DNA from: a virus
DNA: 42,412 nt
Reading direction: 5' to 3' (one strand)
Virus record (IMG/VR): IMGVR_UViG_3300042904_000070
Location: 1 to 42,412 of that record
Position numbers and translations under genes: made by a program. Under the pieces are notes generated by a model that did not search any database, was not told the DNA's origin, and was given only the letters and a program-made list of their open reading frames with translations. This document shows, one piece after another, positions 8,660 to 40,853 of the stretch. Position 1 is the stretch's first letter. The number at the start of each line of letters is the position of its first letter.

Positions 8660-9176
8660 CTACCAGGCCGATCTGGTCAAGGAGCGCGACCGCCAGATCC
8701 AAGAGAACTACAAGCGCGCCATGGCCTCCTACAACCTCCAGAACGTCGCCGAGGGCGCGCGCATGGAGGAGGTCCGGGCGGCTGCCAGCCAGCAGGCCTT
8801 CGAGATCGCCAAGCAGTCGGCCCAGCTGAAGGCGCGCGTCATCAGCAACGCAGCCCAGACCGGTGCCGGCGGCAACTCCCTGCTCTCGGTTCTCCAGGAC
8901 ATCATGGGCCAGGCCGGCTTCGAGACCAACACGATCCTCACCAACCTCCAGTCCGAGGAAGGGCAGTCTCGCCGGAACCTCGCCGCCTTCCGCGAGGAAG
9001 CCGCCAACCGGATCTCCTCGATCCAGCCCTATACCGCCTCGGTGGTCCGCGGTCCGTCCCTCGCTGGGCCGGCCCTGACGATCGGAGGCGCCGCGCTTGG
9101 CAGCTACTCCGACTACCAGCGCGACCAGAAGATCGCCAAGCTGACCCAAGACACCTCGACGTTGACCACCAAATAG
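8556..9176 (+). CDS. Internal virion protein B (T7 gp14-like)
   Basis: 206 residues. It starts MCGPAAIPLATLAVTAVAAGAQYMGQ, the typical hydrophobic N-terminus of gp14-like ejection proteins that insert in the outer membrane during infection. A long Gln/Ala/Glu-rich helical region follows (residues about 25-160). The stop is followed after 10 bases by the gp15-like gene with GGAGA as ribosome site. The start lies within the preceding gene's C-terminal extension. Confidence 0.9.
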   Translation: MCGPAAIPLATLAVTAVAAGAQYMGQRQAAQDQADYQADLVKERDRQIQENYKRAMASYNLQNVAEGARMEEVRAAASQQAFEIAKQSAQLKARVISNAAQTGAGGNSLLSVLQDIMGQAGFETNTILTNLQSEEGQSRRNLAAFREEAANRISSIQPYTASVVRGPSLAGPALTIGGAALGSYSDYQRDQKIAKLTQDTSTLTTK

Positions 9177-9186
9177 GAGACACCCC

Positions 9187-11262
9187 ATGGCAGAGCTTCG
9201 CTCGGCCGCCCGCGTGCTCGACACCTACGCGGCACCGGGAGCCCGTACCTTCGGGCCGACGATCGGTGGCAACGCCTGGCAGGACCTGGCGGCGGGCCTG
9301 GCCGACTTCAACCCGGCGCTCCAGCGGTTCCTCAAGCAGGAGCACGACATCAAGGCCTCCGAGGACGAGGCCGCCGGTGCCCAGCTCCAGCAGGAGCAGC
9401 GGGTCACCCTCAAGGAGGCCGTCCGCAAGGGCCTGATCCCCGAGGGCGCCAACCCCTACCTGAAGCTCGGCTACCTCAAGTCCGAGCTGCGGCAGAAGGG
9501 CAACGAGTTCCAGACCCACCTGCTCCAGCAGTGGCAGCAGGACGGCGAGATCCAGGACGCCGAGGCTGACGCCATCCCCGAGTGGGCCAGCCAGAAGACC
9601 GCCGACTGGATGAAGTCCAACCTGTCCGGCTACGCCCCCGAGCTGGTCCAGGAGGTGTTCGAGCCGGCCGCCCAGTCCGGCCAGAACCGCCTGATGCAGT
9701 ACCACATCGGGGAGAGCTTCAAGCGCACCTCCGAGAAGGCCCGCAGTGCTCTGGAGCAGGAGGTCGGCAGCCTCTTCTCCGCCGTCGAGCAGGGCAACCC
9801 GATCGAGTTGGCGACCAAGCTGGCCGAGCAGGGCATGGACCTGGCCTCCTACAGCGACGAGGCCGAGCTTCGGCACGGCTACCTGGTCACCTCGATCCAG
9901 CGCCTGGTCGACGATGCGGTCGCCAACGGCATGTCCGGCTCCGACGCCAATCTGGTCGCGGCCGAGGCGGTCGCCGTCCAGGCCCGCGCCATGCGTGACG
10001 TGTCGGTCCTGAGCGTGCTCGACGACGTGCGGACCAACAGTGGCCCCCTCTCGGGGATCACCAAGGTCCGGCAGCTGCGCGAGGCGGCCGAGGACCACAT
10101 CGCCTCGATCAACCAGCGGGACGCCCACTTCGCGGTGTTCCTGCGGGAGCAGCAGCAGAAGCAGCAGGTGGAGAGCCTGATGCGTGGCGCCTGGACCCGC
10201 CTGATCGGGGACCACACCTCGGACATCGACGAGGAGCTGATGGCTCTCAGCCAGGTGGACCCCGGTGCGGCAAGCTCCCTGCTGGCTGCGCAATCCTCGA
10301 TGATCTCTGCCCGCACCCGCGTGATCACCGACCACCAGACCGCCGCAGCGATGCGCGCCCTGGTCCACGAGGGGCAGGCCAGCCTGCGGGACATCGTGTC
10401 CCTGGTCGGCACCGCCTACGACAGCGACTTCGCGTCCTCGCTCATGGACGACCTCGACCGGGCTCAGCGGTACGCCGCGGACCTGGCCGACGAGGAGATC
10501 CAGGGCATGTCCCGCGACCTTGAGCGGATCGTGGCCGGCGGCGACCCGGCTGCTGGTGGGATCGACCCCACGCTCGGCGAGCTGGGCGTGCAGGCGAAGA
10601 ACCGCTTCAACTCCGACCTCCTCGACTGGGTCGACGGCTTCGAGCAGAAGGAAGGCCGCAAGCCCCGGCGTTCGGAGATCCGTGCCGCGGCCGAGGATCT
10701 CCAGTCCTCGATCCTGAAGAACCCTCGCTACAACGCCACCCGCATCCAGGATGGCGCCACCTACGAGACCCCGACCCAGGCCAAGGTCGACGCCACGTCG
10801 CCCGTCGAGCAGTACCTCCCGCCCGCCATCGCGCTCGAACGCGCGCCCGCGCAGGTGGACTGGCAGAACCGGCCGATGTGGACGGACCCCGAAGCCTTCA
10901 TGAACTCTGTGCAGCGCTTCGAGACCACCGGCACCGGCCTCCTGAAGAACCTGGTCGACCACCTCGCGGTCAGCCCCGACGACCTGATCTCGACCCAGGC
11001 CCGCCTCCTTGGCCTGGAGTTGGTCCCCGAGGAGCCCGTCGTGGAACAGGAGCCTGCGCCTGCCCCCGAGCCCGCCCCCGAGCCCGCCCCTGCGGCAGAG
11101 CCCGAGGACGAGGACATCGGCCTTCTCGACCAACTGACCGACCTCCCGGCCGACATCGCCGCGGGGATCAACCGCATCCGTGAAAGGCTCATCGCCCTCC
11201 GTGCTGCTCGCGAGCAGGCCGGCAAACTGGCGGATGAGCTGGATAGCAACCTCACACCGTAA
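9187..11262 (+). CDS. Internal virion protein C (T7 gp15-like)
   Basis: 691 residues, close to the 747 of T7 gp15. It is mostly helical, with an N-terminal segment NPALQRFLKQEHDIKASEDEAAGAQ and many internal Gln/Glu-rich helices. It ends in a Pro/Glu/Ala-rich linker (about residues 617-640) and a charged tail. In T7-like phages this ejection protein forms the periplasmic tunnel with gp16. Assignment rests on gene order between gp14 and gp16 homologues, length and helical content; residue-level conservation is weak in this family. Confidence 0.82.
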   Translation: MAELRSAARVLDTYAAPGARTFGPTIGGNAWQDLAAGLADFNPALQRFLKQEHDIKASEDEAAGAQLQQEQRVTLKEAVRKGLIPEGANPYLKLGYLKSELRQKGNEFQTHLLQQWQQDGEIQDAEADAIPEWASQKTADWMKSNLSGYAPELVQEVFEPAAQSGQNRLMQYHIGESFKRTSEKARSALEQEVGSLFSAVEQGNPIELATKLAEQGMDLASYSDEAELRHGYLVTSIQRLVDDAVANGMSGSDANLVAAEAVAVQARAMRDVSVLSVLDDVRTNSGPLSGITKVRQLREAAEDHIASINQRDAHFAVFLREQQQKQQVESLMRGAWTRLIGDHTSDIDEELMALSQVDPGAASSLLAAQSSMISARTRVITDHQTAAAMRALVHEGQASLRDIVSLVGTAYDSDFASSLMDDLDRAQRYAADLADEEIQGMSRDLERIVAGGDPAAGGIDPTLGELGVQAKNRFNSDLLDWVDGFEQKEGRKPRRSEIRAAAEDLQSSILKNPRYNATRIQDGATYETPTQAKVDATSPVEQYLPPAIALERAPAQVDWQNRPMWTDPEAFMNSVQRFETTGTGLLKNLVDHLAVSPDDLISTQARLLGLELVPEEPVVEQEPAPAPEPAPEPAPAAEPEDEDIGLLDQLTDLPADIAAGINRIRERLIALRAAREQAGKLADELDSNLTP

Positions 11263-15327: not shown

Positions 15328-15456
15328 AGCCTCACCAGCGAGGGCTCCCCAGCCGGGGCACCACCCTAGCGGACGCATCGTCATCGCCTGGCCTACCCAG
15401 GGCCGCGGGGCGGCGCCATGCGTCCGAACCTATCCACCTCGACAAGGGAGCCTGCT

Positions 15457-17172
15457 GTGGCGGTCAAGCCCGCGATCCCAGCGAAGATCCTCAAGCGGTT
15501 CGACAACTTCCTCCGGCTGACGTGGGCGCACCTCCAGCTCCCTCCGCCCGACGCCATCCAGCTCGACCTGGCTCACACCCTCCAGTACGGGCCGGACCGG
15601 CTGATCATCGAGGCCTTCCGAGGGGTCGGCAAGAGCTACATCACCGGCGCCTTCTGCCTATGGCTGCTCCTCAACGACCCCGACCTCCAGATCCTCATCG
15701 TCTCCGCGAGCACCGACAAGGCCCGAGACCAGACCACCTTCATGCTCCGGCTCCTCCGGGAGATGCCCATCCTCCAGCACCTGGCCCCGACCGGGGACAT
15801 GCGGGCGTCCATGGAGGGCTTCGACGTCACCGGCGCCACCGTGAAGCAGAGCCCCTCGGTCCGCTCGAAGGGCATCACCTCGAACATCACCGGTGGCCGA
15901 GCTGACGTGATCATCCCGGATGACGTCGAGACCCCGGACAACAGCATGACGCAGACCATGCGCGAGAAGATCCGCGAGAAGGTCCGCGAGCTGGACAACA
16001 TCATCAAGCCGGGGCCGGGACACCGCATCATCTACCTCGGCACGCCGCAGCTGGAGGACAGCCTCTACGAGGTCTTGCCGGAGCGCGGCTACCACACCCG
16101 CATCTGGCCGATCCGGTTCCCCACCACCAAGGAGCGGGATCGCTACGGGACCAAGCTGGCTCCCTCTGTGATCGCCGCCCTGGAGAGCGACCCGACCCTC
16201 GCCGGCTCACCTCTGGAGCCCCGCCGGTTCGGCGACCTGATCATCCTGGAGAAGGAGGCCTCGCAGGGCCGCTCAGGGTTCCGCCTCCAGTACATGCTCG
16301 ACACCAGCCTGAGCGACCAGGAGAAGCACCCGCTGAAGCTCTCCGACCTGGTCGTCATGGACCTGAACCCCGAGCGCGCCCCGGAGAAGGTGATCTGGGC
16401 CGCCGCCCCTGAGCTGGTCTGGCAGGAGCTGCCGAACGTCGGCCTCAAGGGGGACAAGCTCTACCGACCCATGGGCCTCGATGGCCTGCGCGACCCTGCC
16501 GGCAACGTCATCTGGCAGCCCTACGGTGGCGCCGTGATGGCGATCGACCCGTCCGGCCGCGGTCAGGACGAGACCTCCTACGCCGTCTCGAAGATGCTCA
16601 ACAGCCAGGTCTTCGTCCCCGACGCTGGCGGCTTCGTTGGTGGCTACGACATGGAGACCCTGGAGGGCCTGGCCCGCAAGGCGAAGGAGCACGGGGTCAA
16701 GAAGGTCATCTACGAGGGCAACTTCGGCGACGGCATGTGGGGCAAGCTGTTCGCCCCCGTCCTCGGCCGCATCTACCCCTGCACCCTCGAAGAGGTGAAG
16801 GCCACCAACCGGGCGTTCAAGGAAGCCAGGATCATCGACATCCTGGAGCCCGTGATGAACAACCACCGCCTGATCATCGACAGGCGCGTCGTCGAGCGGG
16901 ACTTCGCATCCACCCAGCACCTCCCGCCCGAGAAGGCCCTCAAGTACCAGCTGCTCTACCAGCTCACCCGCATCACCCGAGAGCGGGGCAGCCTGGTCCA
17001 CGACGACCGCCTCGACGCGCTCGCCTGGGCCGTCTGGTACTGGGTCGAGCAGATGTCCGCCGACGCTGACCGCCGCCTCCAGGAGAGCCGCGAGCAGCAC
17101 CTACAGGCTGAGATCGACCGGTTCCTCGAACACGCTCTCGGCTCGAACCCCAACCCGCAAACCTGGATGTAA
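15457..17172 (+). CDS. Terminase large subunit (T7 gp19-like packaging ATPase/nuclease)
   Basis: 571 residues from a GTG at 15457, preceded by AAGGGAG with six-base spacing and by the junction motif TATCCACC. An in-frame ATG at 15418 has a poorer ribosome site and would give 584 residues. Walker A is FRGVGKSY (Lys59). The Walker B-like strand ends DVIIPDDVE (Asp155). The nuclease domain starts MAIDPSGRGQDET, and NFGDGMWGKLFAPVL and the C-terminal HDDRLDALAWAV are conserved in gp19. The enzyme cuts concatemers and pumps DNA through the portal. It is the last recognisable gene of the late operon. Confidence 0.95.
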   Translation: MAVKPAIPAKILKRFDNFLRLTWAHLQLPPPDAIQLDLAHTLQYGPDRLIIEAFRGVGKSYITGAFCLWLLLNDPDLQILIVSASTDKARDQTTFMLRLLREMPILQHLAPTGDMRASMEGFDVTGATVKQSPSVRSKGITSNITGGRADVIIPDDVETPDNSMTQTMREKIREKVRELDNIIKPGPGHRIIYLGTPQLEDSLYEVLPERGYHTRIWPIRFPTTKERDRYGTKLAPSVIAALESDPTLAGSPLEPRRFGDLIILEKEASQGRSGFRLQYMLDTSLSDQEKHPLKLSDLVVMDLNPERAPEKVIWAAAPELVWQELPNVGLKGDKLYRPMGLDGLRDPAGNVIWQPYGGAVMAIDPSGRGQDETSYAVSKMLNSQVFVPDAGGFVGGYDMETLEGLARKAKEHGVKKVIYEGNFGDGMWGKLFAPVLGRIYPCTLEEVKATNRAFKEARIIDILEPVMNNHRLIIDRRVVERDFASTQHLPPEKALKYQLLYQLTRITRERGSLVHDDRLDALAWAVWYWVEQMSADADRRLQESREQHLQAEIDRFLEHALGSNPNPQTWM

Positions 17173-17175
17173 CCC

Positions 17176-17349
17176 ATGAACGTCCTCACCACCCTCACCG
17201 TGAAGAAGGGCGCCTCGACCGCCTCGGTCTCCCTGAAGCTGAAGGCGGACGGCTCCTACGAGTTCACCGACAAGGACGGCGTCGTCGTGACCACCCACTC
17301 GAACGAGGCCATGCGCCGGCTGTTCGAGGCGATCAACGCGCTGGTCTAA
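17176..17349 (+). CDS. Small protein after large terminase
   Basis: 57 residues starting MNVLTTLTVKKGASTASVSL. It is beta-rich in its first two thirds (alternating Thr/Val/Ser) with a short C-terminal helix, EAMRRLFEAINALV. The start is three bases after the terminase stop, so it is probably read by re-initiation. It stands at the T7 gp19.5 position at the right genome end, but I see no clear similarity to gp19.5. It is the last gene before the terminator hairpin at 17367. Confidence 0.65.
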   Translation: MNVLTTLTVKKGASTASVSLKLKADGSYEFTDKDGVVVTTHSNEAMRRLFEAINALV

Positions 17350-17366
17350 GCGCTCCCGCGGGCCTT

Positions 17367-17401
17367 GGGCTCCTCTCCGACCCCCAATCGGGGAGGGGCC
17401 T
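17367..17401 (+). terminator. Late-operon end hairpin
   Basis: A 14-pair stem: GGGCTCCTCTCCGA (17367-17380) with TCGGGGAGGGGCCT (17388-17401), including G-T pairs, around CCCCCAA. It sits 18 bases after the last late gene and 22 bases before a phage promoter. It probably ends or slows late transcription. Confidence 0.65.
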
Positions 17402-17422
17402 AAGTGCTTGATCTTCCGTGGG

Positions 17423-17449
17423 TGCGAAATACCTTCCCACTTAACCCCC
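17423..17449 (+). promoter_or_regulatory. Phage RNA polymerase promoter, left-end copy
   Basis: A 27-base sequence with core GAAATACCTTCCCACTTAA, identical to the copy at 40827-40853 and 19 of 21 bases the same as 29825-29846. The layout AATAC...CACT..A parallels the T7 consensus (AATAC...CACTATA) on the + strand. It would serve the left-end region, possibly as a replication-origin promoter like T7 phi-OL/OR. Inferred from repetition and position. Confidence 0.75.
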
Positions 17450-17518
17450 CTCCCAGGGTCAGTCCCTATAGGTCCTAGCCTCGGAGGTGGGTAGGTAGAG
17501 GGTCTCCCCCTGATGTCA

Positions 17519-17554
17519 CCCCTTGAGGTCAGACCCAGGGACAGACCTGAGGGG
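17519..17554 (+). other. Long imperfect hairpin in the left-end region
   Basis: CCCCTTGAGGTC (17519-17530) pairs with GACCTGAGGGG (17544-17554) with one bulge, around a 13-base loop. It lies about 70 bases downstream of the phage promoter, so it would form in its transcript. Confidence 0.45.
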
Positions 17555-18110
17555 GTACTGCCGGGGGGTTACCTCTCGTAGTAGCGTTAGGTTTCCATCC
17601 AGCCTCCTCCATGCCCTTAGTGTGTCCCTCCTGGCTCCCCACCCTCTACTGATCCCCCTCCTCAGATACCCTCCTCCCCTGGTCTCCCCTCGGGGCTCCG
17701 CCCCTCAGGTCGCCCAGGGGGCCAAGCCGGAATGATTTGGGTCGCTCACCCGAGTGGGCATCCGCAAGGGCATCGCCGCCGATTTCCCCCCTTGGGGTCG
17801 GCCACCCGCGCACGCGAGGAAAACCGCGCCTGGCACCCGCACGCGCGCACCGCACGCAACACGCCACGCAACGCGGTGGGCTGGAACCCGCGGAAAGCCT
17901 AGGGTTCCAACAGACTTGAGATCTGCCGGCACCGCACGCGACCACGCCCGCACGCCACGCCTGCACGCCTGCGCACGGTACACCGCACGCGCAAGGCTGG
18001 CACGCCAACGCTTGATCCCGTGTATCTGTCTCGCCAGCCCAACGTTGCCACCCAACGTGGCCACCCGATGGCAAGCCGCACGCCACCCACGCCCGCGCAC
18101 GCGAGGCCGG

Positions 18111-18149
18111 CCACAAGGGGCGACCACAAGGGGCGACCACAAGGGGCGA
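18111..18149 (+). repeat. Three perfect 13-bp tandem repeats
   Basis: The unit CCACAAGGGGCGA occurs three times head to tail (18111, 18124, 18137). Short tandem repeats flanking the terminal repeat are known at T7-like genome ends. The spacing is too short for CRISPR. Confidence 0.9.
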
Positions 18150-18214
18150 CGATAGGTCTTGACAGGCTGGCCACGGCGCGCGCTTGCCCACAAGGCGAGC
18201 CTCGCGCGGCTGCG

Positions 18215-18380
18215 CGCAGAGAGGCACCGCACGCCCGCACGCCGGGGCGCCACCTGCGCGCCCGCGGAGAGGCAACCGCACGCGCACCCACACGTCACGC
18301 GGCGCGGGCTCGGGTCGGGCCGCAGAGAGGCAACCGCACGCGCGCTCGCCCGGCCGCGCGCGGAGTAGCAACCATGCACG
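18215..18380 (+). repeat. Four dispersed copies of a ~22-bp repeat
   Basis: CGCAGAGAGGCAACCGCACG-like copies lie at 18215-18234, 18263-18285, 18321-18343 and, degenerate, at 18357-18380. Spacing varies (48, 58 and 36 bases). They are embedded in GCACGC-rich sequence. They could be protein-binding iterons or part of the packaging/terminal region. Confidence 0.75.
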
Positions 18381-18507
18381 CTGGCGCGTCACGCGGCTGC
18401 GCGCGGGTCAATGCGTCGAGGTCGGCCAAGGGTGCGACAACGGTCTACCTGGAACCCGCAGAAACCCTGGACGAAAACAGAAAAGTGTCGCACCCTGAAA
18501 ATAGTTG

Positions 18508-18536
18508 TTGCAAGACCATCCACGTCGGCATAAATT
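18508..18536 (+). promoter_or_regulatory. Possible host sigma-70 early promoter
   Basis: TTGCAA (18508-18513) and ATAAAT (18530-18535) are 16 bases apart, in a segment visibly lower in GC than its surroundings. The predicted start near 18543 lies just upstream of the structured block and the early genes, where T7-like phages carry host-read promoters. Weak matches; inferred. Confidence 0.4.
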
Positions 18537-18599
18537 CCAGATCGTCAACAACGGCAAACGAAGTCGGGGTTGACCGGACCGGGAAGATAACCGGGCCGC

Positions 18600-19130
18600 C
18601 GGGGACCACCCAACAGGCTAGAGCCTGCCGACAAGCCCGCAAGGGGTCGCGATGTGGTCCATGCCAGTGGGCGCCGTGCGATGGCGCTCCGGTGCAAGAG
18701 AACGCCCATCCTGGTTCTCAAGCGTCTGTCGCCGACAGCAGTCGGCAGGGCGGCGGGTTAGTAGCCCGTAGGGATGGGGCAGGCTTGCCCAGCTTAACCG
18801 GAAGTGCGCCGCTAGGGGCGCACTAGGCTACTGCGCCGGGTCTGGCTTCATGTCCCGAAGGCGCAGCGTCGGAGACACCGGATTTGCCGCAGGGATGGGC
18901 CTGTGGTTCGCATGATCCGGGCACCTAGCAAACAGACACCCTACGGCACCACCGAACGCTCGCCAATTGGCCGGCCGCTATGCCCTGCAACGGGGCGCGA
19001 AGGCCTCGCCACCATGCCAGCGTGAAGTGGTGCCGCAAGGTTGTCTTGATCTGGTCACCATGCCGCCTACACCGGGACGGCGGGCATCGAAGCGCGAGCG
19101 CGTCAAGCTCGCCATTGGTGGCCAGACCAA
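18600..19130 (+). ncRNA. Candidate large structured RNA upstream of the early genes
   Basis: The block can be folded into many perfect helices. GGACCAC (18603-18609) with GTGGTCC (18654-18660) closes a junction holding CAGGC-TAGA-GCCTG and a CCC-GCAA-GGG hairpin with a GNRA loop. AGTGCGCC (18803-18810) pairs with GGCGCACT (18817-18824). CTGCGCC (18831-18837) pairs with GGCGCAG (18860-18866). CCGGAT/ATCCGG (18878/18915) encloses CCGCAGG/CCTGTGG. CGGCACCAC (18944-18952) pairs over distance with GTGGTGCCG (19027-19035). No open frame here looks coding. I cannot match it to tmRNA, RNase P RNA, a group I intron or another class I know. It ends about 25 bases before the first early gene. Confidence 0.55.
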
Positions 19131-19153
19131 GCCAACCTTACAGGACAACTCCC

Positions 19154-19426
19154 ATGCTCATAGATCAGCCGTTCAAGACAGAGGCTGAGCACGACCGCGA
19201 CTTGCGAGCGCTCGGCTACTACTGCGCCCGCGAGCACTTCCCATTTGGCCGCTGCCCTTGGTATCGGTCGGATGATGACCGCGAGGGCTACTACCTGAAC
19301 CGCCGCGCCGATGGCCTCTACGAGGTTGTCGATTGGGCCGATCTGCGCGCCATCCTGCGCGAGGATTGGCGCCCGGTCTCGGCTGCCGATTGCGCTTGGG
19401 CTCGCGCCAACGGGTGCGGCGGATGA
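19154..19426 (+). CDS. Early gene, unrecognised 90-residue protein
   Basis: Begins MLIDQPFKTEAEHDRDLRAL. It is rich in aromatic residues, Asp and Arg, with a central REHFPFGRCPWYRSDDDREG and the C-terminal VDWADLRAILREDWRPV. This is the first gene after the structured block; ACAGGACAA upstream is a modest ribosome site. An in-frame ATG 58 codons upstream would read through the structured block and is less likely. The stop overlaps the next gene's ATG (ATGA). First-expressed genes of T7-like phages often counter host defences or host polymerase; function here is unknown. Confidence 0.7.
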   Translation: MLIDQPFKTEAEHDRDLRALGYYCAREHFPFGRCPWYRSDDDREGYYLNRRADGLYEVVDWADLRAILREDWRPVSAADCAWARANGCGG

Positions 19427-19548
19427 TCTGCCCTGAGCCAATCCAGCCGCGCCGCTGGTGCAACGTCTGCGCCCTCTGGCGCTTCGCCACGTGCCCAACA
19501 ACGGCCATGGTCGCGATGTTCGCCATCGTGGCCATTGCCTTGTCCTGA
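19423..19548 (+). CDS. Small putative membrane peptide
   Basis: 41 residues starting MICPEPIQPRRWCNVCALWR. Cys-x-x-Cys is followed by a hydrophobic tail, TTAMVAMFAIVAIALS. The start overlaps the preceding stop by ATGA. Its stop lies in a 28-base sequence that recurs after the polymerase gene. Function unknown. Confidence 0.5.
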   Translation: MICPEPIQPRRWCNVCALWRFATCPTTAMVAMFAIVAIALS

Positions 19549-19571
19549 TCCATCCACGCCGTCATCACATG
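19544..19571 (+). repeat. 28-bp dispersed repeat, copy 1
   Basis: It spans the stop codon of the small membrane peptide and reads TGATCCATCCAC then CCGTCATCACATG. It is identical to 29783-29810 except for one base. It belongs to a wider family of gene-junction motifs with core ATCCACC. Confidence 0.85.
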
Positions 19572-19580
19572 AGGCTTGCC

Positions 19581-19733
19581 ATGAATGCGCACCCTGTCGC
19601 CATCGCCACGGCCAACGCTCGCGAGGCATGGGCCGAAGAAATCCGCCAGCTGGCCATTGCCGAGCTTCGGCAAGAGGAACGCCGCGCAGCCTTCCGCGGT
19701 CGCATCCTGCGCCCGGTCAACGCCAATGCGTAG
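19581..19733 (+). CDS. Small helical early protein
   Basis: 50 residues starting MNAHPVAIATANAREAWAEE. It is an Ala/Glu/Arg-rich single-helix type with IRQLAIAELRQEERRAAF. GAGG lies 7 bases before this ATG, so I prefer it to the ATG at 19569. The stop overlaps the next start by eight bases. Unrecognised. Confidence 0.55.
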   Translation: MNAHPVAIATANAREAWAEEIRQLAIAELRQEERRAAFRGRILRPVNANA

Positions 19734-19821
19734 GATCGCCGCCAGCCTCGCCTGCTCGCCCATCGCATGGGCGCTCGCCTCGGCCGCCCTATGGGCGCCC
19801 GTTCTCGCCTACCTCGGGTGA
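19726..19821 (+). CDS. Tiny hydrophobic peptide
   Basis: 31 residues, MRRIAASLACSPIAWALASA then ALWAPVLAYLG: basic N-terminus followed by a continuous hydrophobic segment, like a single membrane span or an uncleaved signal. Overlap with the upstream gene suggests coupled translation. It could be a non-gene; the hydrophobic profile is its only support. Confidence 0.4.
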   Translation: MRRIAASLACSPIAWALASAALWAPVLAYLG

Positions 19822-19905
19822 TCATCGCCTCAGGCCATCTGCGGGTGGCCTGCACGATGGCCGCCGCTATGGGCCGATCAATCCACCTTGTTGGAAGATG
19901 CCACG

Positions 19906-25213: not shown

Positions 25214-25633
25214 ATGTTCACCTGGTACAAGGAGTTCCGCAAGCTCGGCGCCGTCTTCGCCGAGTACCCCACTGAGCCGGGGCGGCGGTTCGTCGAGGCC
25301 TACAGGGAGAACGGCGAGCTGTTCCTGTGGGTAGGTCGCCTGCACCTGATCGCCACCCACGCCAAGCGCCTCGCTCAGAACGGCGTCAACTCCGCCATCG
25401 TGTTCAGCGTGACCTGGTTCGAGGGGATGGTGACCCTGCTCCCCACCGTCAAGAGGGCAGCCGCCGCCGCCGCGATGGTGGCCACCGCCGCAACCACCAT
25501 GGAGCCGGCCATCTCCGTCGAGGCCGCGCCCGTCACGATCCAGATCGAGGAGACCACCGCATGGCTGTCGTCGCCGGCATCCGACTTCCCCGAGGCATTC
25601 GTGCCCGAGGCGACAGCTTCCTCGTCTCGGTAG
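25214..25633 (+). CDS. Unrecognised protein upstream of and overlapping the integrase
   Basis: 139 residues starting MFTWYKEFRKLGAVFAEYPT. A globular-looking N-terminal ~75 residues (RFVEAYRENGELFLWVGRLH) are followed by an Ala-rich hydrophobic stretch, VKRAAAAAAMVATAATT, and a Ser/Glu/Pro tail. It starts three bases after the regulator stop. Its last 73 bases overlap the integrase start in another frame. It could be an excisionase or regulatory partner by position only; no HTH is visible. Confidence 0.6.
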   Translation: MFTWYKEFRKLGAVFAEYPTEPGRRFVEAYRENGELFLWVGRLHLIATHAKRLAQNGVNSAIVFSVTWFEGMVTLLPTVKRAAAAAAMVATAATTMEPAISVEAAPVTIQIEETTAWLSSPASDFPEAFVPEATASSSR

Positions 25634-26583
25634 GAGCCGGACCCACCCGCCAGACGGCCACCTGCCACTCGCTCGAAGAGGCCCTCGCGAAGCAGCGGGA
25701 GCTGAAGGCAGGGGAGCCTTCGGCCCCCGCCGCCGAGGTCTGGACCCTCCAGCGGGCGCTCGACACCACCGTGCGGGTGGCCTGGGCTGACACCCGAGGG
25801 GAGCACACCGCCCAGGTCAACGCGCAGTCGGCGCTCGACCACTTCGGCCCGGAGACCACGCTCGATCGCATCACGACCGACGCGCTCGACGAGTACGTGC
25901 AGGCGCTCAAGGACGAGGGGCTGGCCAACGGCACCATCAACCGGAAGCTCGCGGCCCTGTCCAAGGTTCTGACCGTGGCCGTCGACCGCCGGGGCCTGGC
26001 CTTCAAGCCGAAGCTGCCACGCCTGCGGGAAGGGGTCGGCCGCATCCGCTACCTGACGGCGGACGAGGAGCGCGTCCTGCTGGGGCTGCTCGGGCAGTGG
26101 TCCATGCCGGATCACGTCGATGCCATCACCGTGCTGGTCGACACCGGGCTCCGGGTCGGCGAGCTGTTCCGCCTCACCGCACGTGACGTCGACCAGAGGC
26201 AGCGCCTGCTCCACGTGTGGGAGAACAAGGCCGACCACCCTCGCTCGGTGCCGCTGACCAAGCGCGCCTACGAGGTGATCAAGCGGCGCATGCACGGCGC
26301 TGCCTACGGTGGTCCCGACCTGTTCCCCTACAACCACGACTGGCTGCGCCGCCCCTGGGATCGAGCCAAGGTCACCATGGGGCTCGGCGACGACAAGCAG
26401 TTCGTGCCTCACACCCTGCGCCACACCTGCGCCAGCCGCCTGGTCCAGCGCAGCGTGCCGCTGAAGGTGGTCCAGGAGTGGATGGGCCACAAGACGATCC
26501 AGGTCACCATGCGCTACGCGCACCTGGCCCCGGCCAACCTGCTGGCCGCCGTCCAGGCCCTCGAAGGAGACGACGACCGATGA
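25561..26583 (+). CDS. int: Tyrosine-recombinase integrase
   Basis: 340 residues from the ATG at 25561 with GGAG upstream; the frame is open further 5' but that part has shadow-type composition. The N-terminal core-binding domain (about 60-145) includes TTDALDEYVQALKDEGLANG. Catalytic residues are visible: Arg198 in DTGLRVGELFRL, the beta-hairpin HPRSVPLTK, His284-x-x-Arg287 in HTLRHTCASRL, His310 in WMGHKTIQ and Tyr319 in MRYAHLAP. It catalyses site-specific integration and, with help, excision. The probable attP, a tRNA-Leu with flanking repeats, lies about 0.4 kb downstream. Confidence 0.95.
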   Translation: MAVVAGIRLPRGIRARGDSFLVSVGAGPTRQTATCHSLEEALAKQRELKAGEPSAPAAEVWTLQRALDTTVRVAWADTRGEHTAQVNAQSALDHFGPETTLDRITTDALDEYVQALKDEGLANGTINRKLAALSKVLTVAVDRRGLAFKPKLPRLREGVGRIRYLTADEERVLLGLLGQWSMPDHVDAITVLVDTGLRVGELFRLTARDVDQRQRLLHVWENKADHPRSVPLTKRAYEVIKRRMHGAAYGGPDLFPYNHDWLRRPWDRAKVTMGLGDDKQFVPHTLRHTCASRLVQRSVPLKVVQEWMGHKTIQVTMRYAHLAPANLLAAVQALEGDDDR

Positions 26584-26951: not shown

Positions 26952-27268
26952 ATGTTGCGTGTTGCGTCGATGTTGCGTTTGATGCGTGATGTTCCCCTAA
27001 TGTTGCCATGCCGGGGTGGCGGAATTGGCAGACGCGGCGGCCTCAAAAGCCGTTGTCCTTCAAGGACATGCGGGTTCGACCCCCGCCCCCGGCACCACCG
27101 GCACGACAGTCTCAAAATCTACCGCACCCTCCTACGCACCCCTCCAACTGATCCTCTAAGCTAGGCTTTCTGCCGGCTTCAGCCGGTGCGTACAGCTGCG
27201 CCCTGTTCCTATGCACGTTGCCAACAGACTGCACGGGTGGATCGCCCGTGTTGCGTATTTGTTGCGCG
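26952..27268 (+). other. attP: Probable attP: tRNA-Leu core flanked by TGTTGCGT arm sites
   Basis: Direct repeats TGTTGCGT lie at 26953, 26960 and 26971, with a degenerate TGATGCGT at 26980, left of the tRNA. Others lie at 27249 and, as TGTTGCGC, at 27260 on the right. All have the same orientation. Between them is a complete tRNA-Leu gene, the likely core identical to the host tRNA. A core bracketed by repeated arm-type sites near an integrase gene is the lambda-type attP plan; T7-like phages of Pelagibacter also integrate at tRNA-Leu. Confidence 0.75.
27010..27097 (+). tRNA. tRNA-Leu(CAA) with encoded CCA
   Basis: The full cloverleaf can be folded. The acceptor GCCGGGG (27010-27016) pairs with CCCCGGC (27087-27093). 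The D region contains GGAATTGGCAGA. The anticodon stem GCGGC/GCCGT (27037-27041/27049-27053) has loop CTCAAAA with anticodon CAA (27044-27046). A long variable arm, typical of Leu, follows, then the T arm GCGGG-TTCGACC-CCCGC. Discriminator A and CCA are encoded at 27094-27097. All stems are intact, so it may be functional and restore the host gene after integration. Confidence 0.95.
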
Positions 27269-27300
27269 TTCCCCTTCCGTTCCAACCATCGAGAGGCGCC

Positions 27301-29787
27301 ATGAACGACGACCTGATGCAGCGCCAAGCCGAGCTTGAGGCGGAGATGCAGGGTCTCGGGACCGATCAGTTCCGAGCCCGCCTCGCCCGAGCCCGAGACA
27401 CCCACGAGGAGAGCACCACCCCCTACGGTATCGAGATGGTCAGCCGGGCGATCGAGCCCTTGGCCAAGGCCATCGAGGCGTTCATCGAGAAGGCCATGGC
27501 TGGTGGCCGAGGCCGCCGGCACAGCGCCGTCAAGCCGCTGTCCCTGATCGACCAGCAAGTGGCCGCCTTCATCATCATGAAGGTGGTCCTCGACGGCATC
27601 ACCCGGACGCAGCCAGTGACCAAGGTCGCCATGCAGATCGGCGCCCAGCTGGACAACGAGCTGCACTACCAGGCCTTCGAGCAGCAGAAGCCGAAGCTCT
27701 ACGGCAAGGTTGCCGAGAGCGTCCGCCGTGCCTCGCACCGGGGCTACCGCGAGAAGGTCATGACCTACGCCGCCAACAAGTACGGCGCCGAGTACGCCTG
27801 CATGTCGCAGAAGGAGAGGCTGCACCTGGGCATGGCCTGCCTCGACCTGATGATCGAGGTGACCGGCTTCGCCAAGATCGAGACTACTCAGCTGCGGCGG
27901 GAGGTCAGATCGCTGCTGATCCCCACTGAGAAGGTCCTCGCCTGGATCAACTCGACCGTTTCCCGGTGCGAGCTGCTATCGCCGATGCTCCTGCCGATGC
28001 TGGTCGAGCCGAAGCCGTGGACCAGCCCAACTGATGGTGGCTACTACTCTCAGTTCGCGCGCCGTCACTTCGTCAAGACCTCGGCCACGAACCTGAAGCC
28101 GGTCCGCGAGCGGTGGGACGACATGGCCACCGTGCGTGAGGCCATCGAGCGCATTGACCGGACCGGCTGGCGCATCCGACAGGACGTTCTGGCGGTTGCC
28201 CACTGGTACTGGGACGCCGGCATCACGGTTGGCAAGCTCCCTCCTCGGGAGGATGTGGACCTCCCTCCATGCCCTGTCTGCGGGCAGAAGCCGGAGGGGG
28301 ACCACGAGCATCTCCGGGACGAGGAGATGAAGAAGCTCTGGAAGCGGGATGCCGCTCGCATCCACGGCTACAACGCCAAGCTCCGATCCAAGCGCCTCCA
28401 GGCGGGGAAGATCCTCTGGCTGGCCGACAAGTTCAAGGACGAGCCGGCGATCTACTTCCCGCACCAGCTCGACTTCCGCGGGCGGGTGTACCCGATGCCC
28501 CTGTTCCTGACCACGCAGGGCAACGACCTGGCCAAGGGACTGCTGACCTTCGCCAAGGGCAAGCCGATCAACGACACCGTCGCCGCGGGCTGGCTCATGA
28601 TCCACGGCGCCGGCGTCTTCGGCTACGACAAGGTGAGCCTGGACGGGCGCATCGCCTGGGTGCAGGAGAACGAGCAGCGCATCCTCGCCAGCGCCGCCGA
28701 CCCGCTCGGCCAGCGGTGGTGGACCGAGGCCGACAAGCCGTGGCAGTTCCTCGCCTTCTGCTTCGAGTGGGCCGCCTTCCAGGCCCACGGCTACGGCTTC
28801 GTCTCGACCCTGCCTGTGTCCCTGGATGGCAGCTGCAACGGCCTCCAGCACTACTCCGCCATGCTGCGCGACCCGAAGGGTGGCAAGGCGGTGAACCTGG
28901 TGCCATCCAACAAGCCGGCCGACATCTACCAGGAGGTGGCCAACGTCACGTTGCATAAGCTGCGCCGTATCGTATCCACCCCGGCAACCAACGACGAGGA
29001 GGAAGCCGAGAGGGTGCTGGCTCAGCAGTGGCTGGACTTCGGGGTGACCCGCAAGACCACCAAGCGGCCGGTCATGGTGGTGCCCTACAGCGGCACGCGC
29101 CATTCCTGCCGGCAGTACATCCAGGCCCACATCGAGGAGGAAGTGGAGGCGCGCAAGCTGCGCGACCCGAGCTACGCCTCGCCGTGGTCGATGGGTGAGC
29201 TGATGGCGCCGTCCCTGTTCCTGACGCGCCTCGTCTGGACCGCGATCGGGGAGGTGGTCGTGGCTGCCCGCAAGGCCATGGACTGGCTCAAGAAGGTTGC
29301 GGCCGCAACGTCCAAGGCGCAGCTGCCACTCCAGTGGGTGACCCCGGTGGGGTTCCCCGTCCACCAGGCCTACTACGACACCACGTCGCGCCGTGTGGAG
29401 ACGAGGCTGGGTGACAGCATCATGCGCCCACGCCTCCAGGAGTACCTGCCCACCATCAACGCTCGGGAGCAGGGCAACGCCTTCGCCCCCAACTTCGTCC
29501 ACTCCCTCGACGCCGCCGCCCTCCAGCTCTCGGTCTGCTACGCGGCGGACAACGGGATCGAGGAGTTCGCCATGGTCCACGACAGCTACGGGTGCCCGGC
29601 GGCCGACGCCGAGATGCTCGGGCAGTGCCTGCGCCATGCGTTCGTCGACCTCTACCAGGAGCACGACGTCCTGGCCGACCTCAAGGCCACCATCGAGGCG
29701 GCTCTCGGTTCCCCCCTCCCACCGCAGCCGGCGATGGGCAGCCTGGACCTGGAGCTGATCAAGCAGTCCGACTTCTTTTTCGCCTGA
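27301..29787 (+). CDS. Single-subunit DNA-directed RNA polymerase (T7 gp1-like)
   Basis: 829 residues from the ATG at 27301 with GAGAGG upstream (T7: 883). Motifs in order: DFRGRVYPMP (about 391), DGSCNGLQHYSAMLRD with metal ligand Asp509, KRPVMVVPYSG with Lys588 and Tyr596, APNFVHSLDAAALQ, HDSYG with Asp761, and the C-terminal SDFFFA. A CPVCGQKPEGDHEH insert near residue 325 could bind zinc. It would read the three AATACCTTCCCACTTAA-type promoters. The gene lies downstream of attP and upstream of the replication promoter. Its own transcription before integration must come from the early region. Confidence 0.97.
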   Translation: MNDDLMQRQAELEAEMQGLGTDQFRARLARARDTHEESTTPYGIEMVSRAIEPLAKAIEAFIEKAMAGGRGRRHSAVKPLSLIDQQVAAFIIMKVVLDGITRTQPVTKVAMQIGAQLDNELHYQAFEQQKPKLYGKVAESVRRASHRGYREKVMTYAANKYGAEYACMSQKERLHLGMACLDLMIEVTGFAKIETTQLRREVRSLLIPTEKVLAWINSTVSRCELLSPMLLPMLVEPKPWTSPTDGGYYSQFARRHFVKTSATNLKPVRERWDDMATVREAIERIDRTGWRIRQDVLAVAHWYWDAGITVGKLPPREDVDLPPCPVCGQKPEGDHEHLRDEEMKKLWKRDAARIHGYNAKLRSKRLQAGKILWLADKFKDEPAIYFPHQLDFRGRVYPMPLFLTTQGNDLAKGLLTFAKGKPINDTVAAGWLMIHGAGVFGYDKVSLDGRIAWVQENEQRILASAADPLGQRWWTEADKPWQFLAFCFEWAAFQAHGYGFVSTLPVSLDGSCNGLQHYSAMLRDPKGGKAVNLVPSNKPADIYQEVANVTLHKLRRIVSTPATNDEEEAERVLAQQWLDFGVTRKTTKRPVMVVPYSGTRHSCRQYIQAHIEEEVEARKLRDPSYASPWSMGELMAPSLFLTRLVWTAIGEVVVAARKAMDWLKKVAAATSKAQLPLQWVTPVGFPVHQAYYDTTSRRVETRLGDSIMRPRLQEYLPTINAREQGNAFAPNFVHSLDAAALQLSVCYAADNGIEEFAMVHDSYGCPAADAEMLGQCLRHAFVDLYQEHDVLADLKATIEAALGSPLPPQPAMGSLDLELIKQSDFFFA

Positions 29788-29824: not shown

Positions 29825-29846
29825 TGAATTACCTTCCCACTTCACC
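29825..29846 (+). promoter_or_regulatory. Phage RNA polymerase promoter, replication-region copy
   Basis: TGAATTACCTTCCCACTT then CACC: two differences over 21 bases from the identical copies at 17423 and 40827. It lies between the polymerase gene and the next gene and would drive the DNA-metabolism genes. The sequence drift suggests different strength. Confidence 0.7.
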
Positions 29847-40826: not shown

Positions 40827-40853
40827 TGCGAAATACCTTCCCACTTAACCCCC
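40827..40853 (+). promoter_or_regulatory. Phage RNA polymerase promoter, late copy
   Basis: 27 bases identical to 17423-17449 (core GAAATACCTTCCCACTTAA). It is located 18 bases before the first late-operon gene. It would drive portal through terminase. Confidence 0.8.

Follow-up and report, generated by a model that had tools for sequence, protein, structure and literature searches.

The early leader of phage T7 is processed by RNase III; we know of no conserved 580-nt structured leader in T7. The put RNA of HK022, about 70 nt long with two simple hairpins, is also part of an early leader, and the put and attenuator leaders known to us are all far smaller and simpler than the RNA described below. 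Known large structured phage RNAs are few. The best known, GOLLD and ROOL, are elaborate RNAs of phages and prophages without established function; a ROOL example has 659 nt and many GOLLD RNAs exceed 800 nt (PMC12286853). A 2011 study described hammerheads that flank genes of prophages and proposed transcript processing as their role (PMC3088659).

The window analyzed here, the whole of a 42.4-kb IMG/VR phage record (IMGVR_UViG_3300042904_000070), has a T7-like gene set with its own RNA polymerase gene (27211–29787), the gene of the terminase large subunit (terL, 15418–17172), and genes for tail, internal virion, and replication proteins. An integrase gene is present within 25327–26583, so the phage is probably temperate. 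Shuffles, alignment z-scores, and covariation support a large structured leader RNA of about 580 bases on the plus strand (18568–19150), 3′ of terL and 5′ of the early genes, close to where the genome is expected to end. In T7-like phages, this is the place of the first tools used against the host. Like the T7 early leader, the RNA occupies this genome position and has a long double-stranded stem ahead of the first gene. HK022 put is likewise a structured RNA within the early leader of a phage, but a far smaller one. Like GOLLD and ROOL, it is large, elaborate, and phage-encoded; those RNAs, however, often occur near tRNA islands, whereas the RNA of the window is in the early leader, with the only tRNA 8 kb away. 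That complete tRNA-Leu (CAA) gene (27010–27097) is near the integrase gene and is a possible attachment site.

Conservation and covariation of the fold

TerL and phrog_1617, an early protein that is conserved, led to three close IMG/VR relatives: 000340 (loci L003/L012/L034), 000964 (L005/L011/L033), and 001270 (L013/L035), all from one metagenome. The block 18373–19159 is present in each of the three with 74%–83% identity (L012, L013, L011), and the order terL–RNA–early genes is kept in L003, L005, and the loci overlapping them. The window and these relatives form the alignment used for covariation (n = 4). For the four sequences, RNAalifold gives 173 pairs, of which 28 have changed on both sides with pairing retained. 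The number of two-sided pairs averages 10.8 ± 2.8 in 100 class-preserving column shuffles, with a maximum of 17 (shuffle means are 10.4–10.8 overall); when the 3′ letters are dealt anew, it is 12.3 ± 2.5 and none of 500 trials reaches the observed value. When the partners are slid by one base, about 40% of the cells remain paired, against 95% before. Among 270 candidates in an exhaustive listing of helices with at least four always-paired columns, only six contain two or more compensatory pairs, and every one of these belongs to the consensus fold. The 5′ domain (18568–18698) has 33 pairs, formed in all four sequences, with nine covarying; the domain 18776–18925 has 38 pairs with eight covarying. 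The original prediction had named covariation as the key test, and the alignment passes it. The sequences thus give strong evidence of a real conserved fold, but not of every helix, because four sequences of one clade offer few independent changes. As read from this alignment, the covariation signal is strong yet phylogenetically shallow, with four related phages, three of them from one metagenome.

Nucleotides 18590–19140 (551 nt) fold to −275.5 kcal/mol, against −251.9 ± 6.5 kcal/mol in 100 dinucleotide shuffles (z −3.64), and no shuffle is as low. The dense block of helices first noted at 18600–19130 is confirmed: its helices are found at the coordinates given, and it folds better than its shuffles, with its boundaries refined to about 18568–19147. 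In segments of 400 nt, the folding z is −3.1 to −5.8 for those starting at 18372, 18772, 18972, and 19172, −1.2 for the one starting at 18572, and near zero for starts from 17372 to 18172. The four-sequence consensus energy of the RNA block (in a second alignment) has a z of −12.4, with control alignments in the same test at −1.4 (phrog_1617 gene) and −0.8 (upstream intergenic stretch). Consensus folding is more favorable on the plus strand (−382.9 vs. −370.0 kcal/mol for the minus strand, the latter with a z of −8.3), and several G–U pairs are conserved. A DNA-level element (a packaging or replication site at the genome end) with inverted repeats that only resemble an RNA fold would suit a place near the expected genome end, 3′ of terL; against these conserved G–U pairs, the strand difference, and a nested multidomain fold, it is very improbable.

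Mismatches in the RNA block are spread evenly across the three codon positions and the indels are mostly non-multiples of three. The absence of codon periodicity and the many nontriplet indels argue against coding, and the initial view that the block holds no credible gene is borne out. Chance pairing or an overlooked gene might be suspected from the high GC content and the overlapping spurious ORFs, but it is contradicted by the shuffle controls, the covariation, and the absent codon signal, which leave it a negligible probability. Compensatory changes above control, a plus-strand bias, and no coding signal, by which conserved structured noncoding RNAs are generally recognized, are all found at this locus, and no Rfam family matches, in support of the large structured noncoding RNA first proposed. 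The structure is conserved on the plus strand, shows no coding signal, and keeps one place in the genome, after terL and before the early genes.

Architecture and flanks of the RNA

The RNA begins with GGUUG at 18568; all of its elements are given on the plus strand. The 5′ hairpin (18575–18598) pairs CGG.CCGG with CCGG.CCG around the loop GAAGANAA and has one G–C to C–G swap in L011. In the two-hairpin junction that follows (18603–18660), the closing helix 18603–18609/18654–18660 covaries at four of seven pairs; the junction encloses one variable hairpin and one invariant GNRA-capped hairpin (about 18629–18649). The hairpin at 18669–18689 keeps an invariant loop on a changing stem (four covarying pairs). 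Further 3′, an invariant GCUUA/UAGGC stem (18790–18828) surrounds the hairpin 18804–18810/18817–18823, which has the loop GCUAGG and three covarying pairs out of seven. The loop (18811–18816) is complementary to CCUAGC at 18924–18929 in all four sequences and forms with it a candidate pseudoknot (18811–18929), for which the complementarity, being invariant, carries no covariation information.

The helix 18831–18834/18863–18866 (18831–18866) has two covarying pairs out of four. The nested helices 18878–18883/18915–18920 and 18887–18893/18900–18906 (18878–18920) are kept in three of the four sequences and are broken or unalignable in L011. The long-range 9-bp helix 18944–18952/19027–19035 (18944–19035) covaries at two of nine pairs, with more in its extension. 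Four of the six helices named in the original prediction are listed with at least two compensatory pairs, whereas the nested pair is not kept throughout. The longest helix, absent from the examples first given, is the 3′ terminal stem 19037–19060/19116–19139 (19037–19139), of about 23 bp with two covarying pairs and one or two internal mismatches; the invariant stretch GCATCGAAGCGCGAGCGCGTCAAG (about 19084–19107) is in its apical part. Taken by length only, this terminal stem is a likely substrate of RNase III.

Upstream, a promoter-like site, TTGCAA–17 nt–TAAATT, is present at 18510–18538 (plus strand). A host promoter had been suspected there, and the −10 region is indeed conserved as CATA[AC]ATTCC in the three relatives, but the match to consensus is weak and a strict promoter consensus scan does not list the site. 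Just 5′ of it, the inverted repeat GGTGCGACA (18431–18439)/TGTCGCACC (18486–18494), mostly invariant in the alignment and with a conserved spacer, is a possible repressor operator. The noncoding stretch between terL and the RNA also holds a direct repeat, CTGGAACCCGC[GA]GAAA[GC]CCT, at 17881–17900 and 18449–18468 (90% identical). The sequence TGCGAAATACCTTCCCACTTAACCCCC is repeated at 17423–17449, 29830–29842, and 40827–40853 (twice in full and once as its core), with one copy 3′ of terL, upstream of the structured RNA; it is a candidate promoter for the phage's own RNA polymerase.

On the 3′ side, the RNA abuts the first early ribosome-binding site (GGACAAC, then the start codon), with the first start codon within about 15 nt of the end of the terminal stem, and a terminator search of the plus strand found none after the RNA. 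A 90-codon ORF directly 3′ of the RNA (19154–19426, plus strand) is absent from the relatives, where the RNA is directly followed by a small ORF equivalent to the 19423 ORF of the window (41 residues in L011). The downstream small-ORF stretch 19424–19905 has a consensus folding z of −4.2 on the plus strand; it has no match in Rfam and perhaps contains further small RNA elements.

Proposed action in trans or in cis

We propose, with confidence that stands about even, that the RNA is a large leader of the early transcript, released by RNase III and acting in trans on a host factor. Host RNA polymerase would start near 18545 and, since no terminator follows the RNA, transcription would read through it into the early genes. 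RNase III would cut the long terminal stem just 5′ of the first start codon and so separate an early mRNA from a free, stable RNA about 580 nt long. Early in infection, the freed RNA would act in trans on a host factor of defence, RNA degradation, or transcription; this step is the least certain. The adjoining gene differs (with the extra ORF at 19154 in the window) while the RNA is kept, which argues against the regulation of one specific gene, and the multidomain RNA is larger than a simple processing site would require; both points favor action in trans. That the RNA represents an undescribed class of large trans-acting phage RNAs, transcribed among the first and disarming or redirecting the host ahead of phage protein synthesis, is a more speculative extension, which we hold as doubtful.

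Alternatively, the RNA could stay on the early transcript and act in cis, through put-like anti-termination, as a stability cap, or as a translation switch, a reading that we regard as a tenable one at somewhat below even confidence. It sits between the promoter-like site and the first start codon, touches the ribosome-binding site, and has no terminator, all of which favors action in cis; a cis-acting leader would be expected to end at the first ribosome-binding site, as this RNA does. In the translation-switch version, alternative GGUUG/CAACC pairings would occur near that site; GGUUG at 18568 and 19039 and CAAC(C) at 19133 and about 19143 permit alternative closing helices. Against it, the first gene varies among relatives that keep the RNA, and the RNA far surpasses the known put and attenuator leaders in size and complexity. 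The candidate noncoding RNA of the original prediction thus stands as a structure, but, without a terminator of its own and next to a ribosome-binding site, it is maybe a cis-acting leader and not a free RNA. We place action in trans only slightly ahead of action in cis, and rate the two close. With its checkable fold, the RNA offers a compact target for studies of its expression, deletion, and structure.

Distribution of the RNA and hammerheads in related prophages

The RNA represents a new family of structured RNAs, narrow in distribution and without a catalogued match. Rfam 15 gives no credible match for the window at gathering scores or for 17100–19500 at E up to 5, and the copies in the relatives, scanned at E up to 10, have chance matches only. 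The covariance models of GOLLD, ROOL, and OLE match neither the window nor the relatives' copies, in agreement with the earlier failure to assign the RNA to GOLLD or ROOL. In the window, no group I or group II intron, RNase P, tmRNA, or known riboswitch is found (Rfam models, ARAGORN). No further copy appears in blastn searches of phage and plasmid collections or in a pattern scan of genome contigs, and a DNA pattern scan of viral sequences returns the same three contigs only, apart from a match in L163 that was rejected as coding and due to chance. Some 160 loci were collected around related terminases and phrog_1617 proteins, 47 of them in bacterial or archaeal genome records; profile and partial covariance models (R1, R2) over these phage, prophage, and host contigs yield no credible homolog. 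The R1 partial covariance model has no match in 385 genomes of one class, in a run without a positive control.

Related alphaproteobacterial prophages carry type II hammerheads in the early region, in the interval from terL to the early genes or just 5′ of early start codons: in L116 (11726–11799), in L121 (11969–12037 and 12563–12632, with an early start codon after each), and in L135 (within 8900–11200, just 5′ of early start codons); further prophages are also positive. These hammerheads are not new in kind. Their leader position is comparable to that of the RNA of the window, but they have about 70 nt and a catalytic core CUGAUGA...GAAA, and the type II hammerhead (RF02276) was not detected in the window or in the records of the three relatives. 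Visual inspection of the conserved 3′ stretch for a hammerhead core showed GAA and UC but no CUGAUGA, and such a core was rejected. Given hammerheads at such terL–early positions, RNA-level processing of early transcripts seems recurrent in this phage group, and the distribution suggests that the early leaders of this temperate T7-like group carry different RNA devices, the RNA of the window in one clade and hammerheads in others. A self-cleaving or otherwise catalytic RNA of an undescribed class could also be considered for the window, with an elaborate conserved fold, invariant loops, a candidate pseudoknot, and hammerheads in comparable leaders; no known ribozyme class matches, however, and we regard catalysis as unlikely.

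In L120, a Binatia MAG contig, a weak collinear match (E about 1) is present at the same position and ranks first among 1001, shuffles included. The L120 leader has no low folding z within the matching segment, and the match, picked from many loci, is only suggestive. The same contig has, between terL and the early genes, a long inverted repeat (10740–10845/11240–11345) whose pairing would yield a closed rod-like RNA several hundred bases long.
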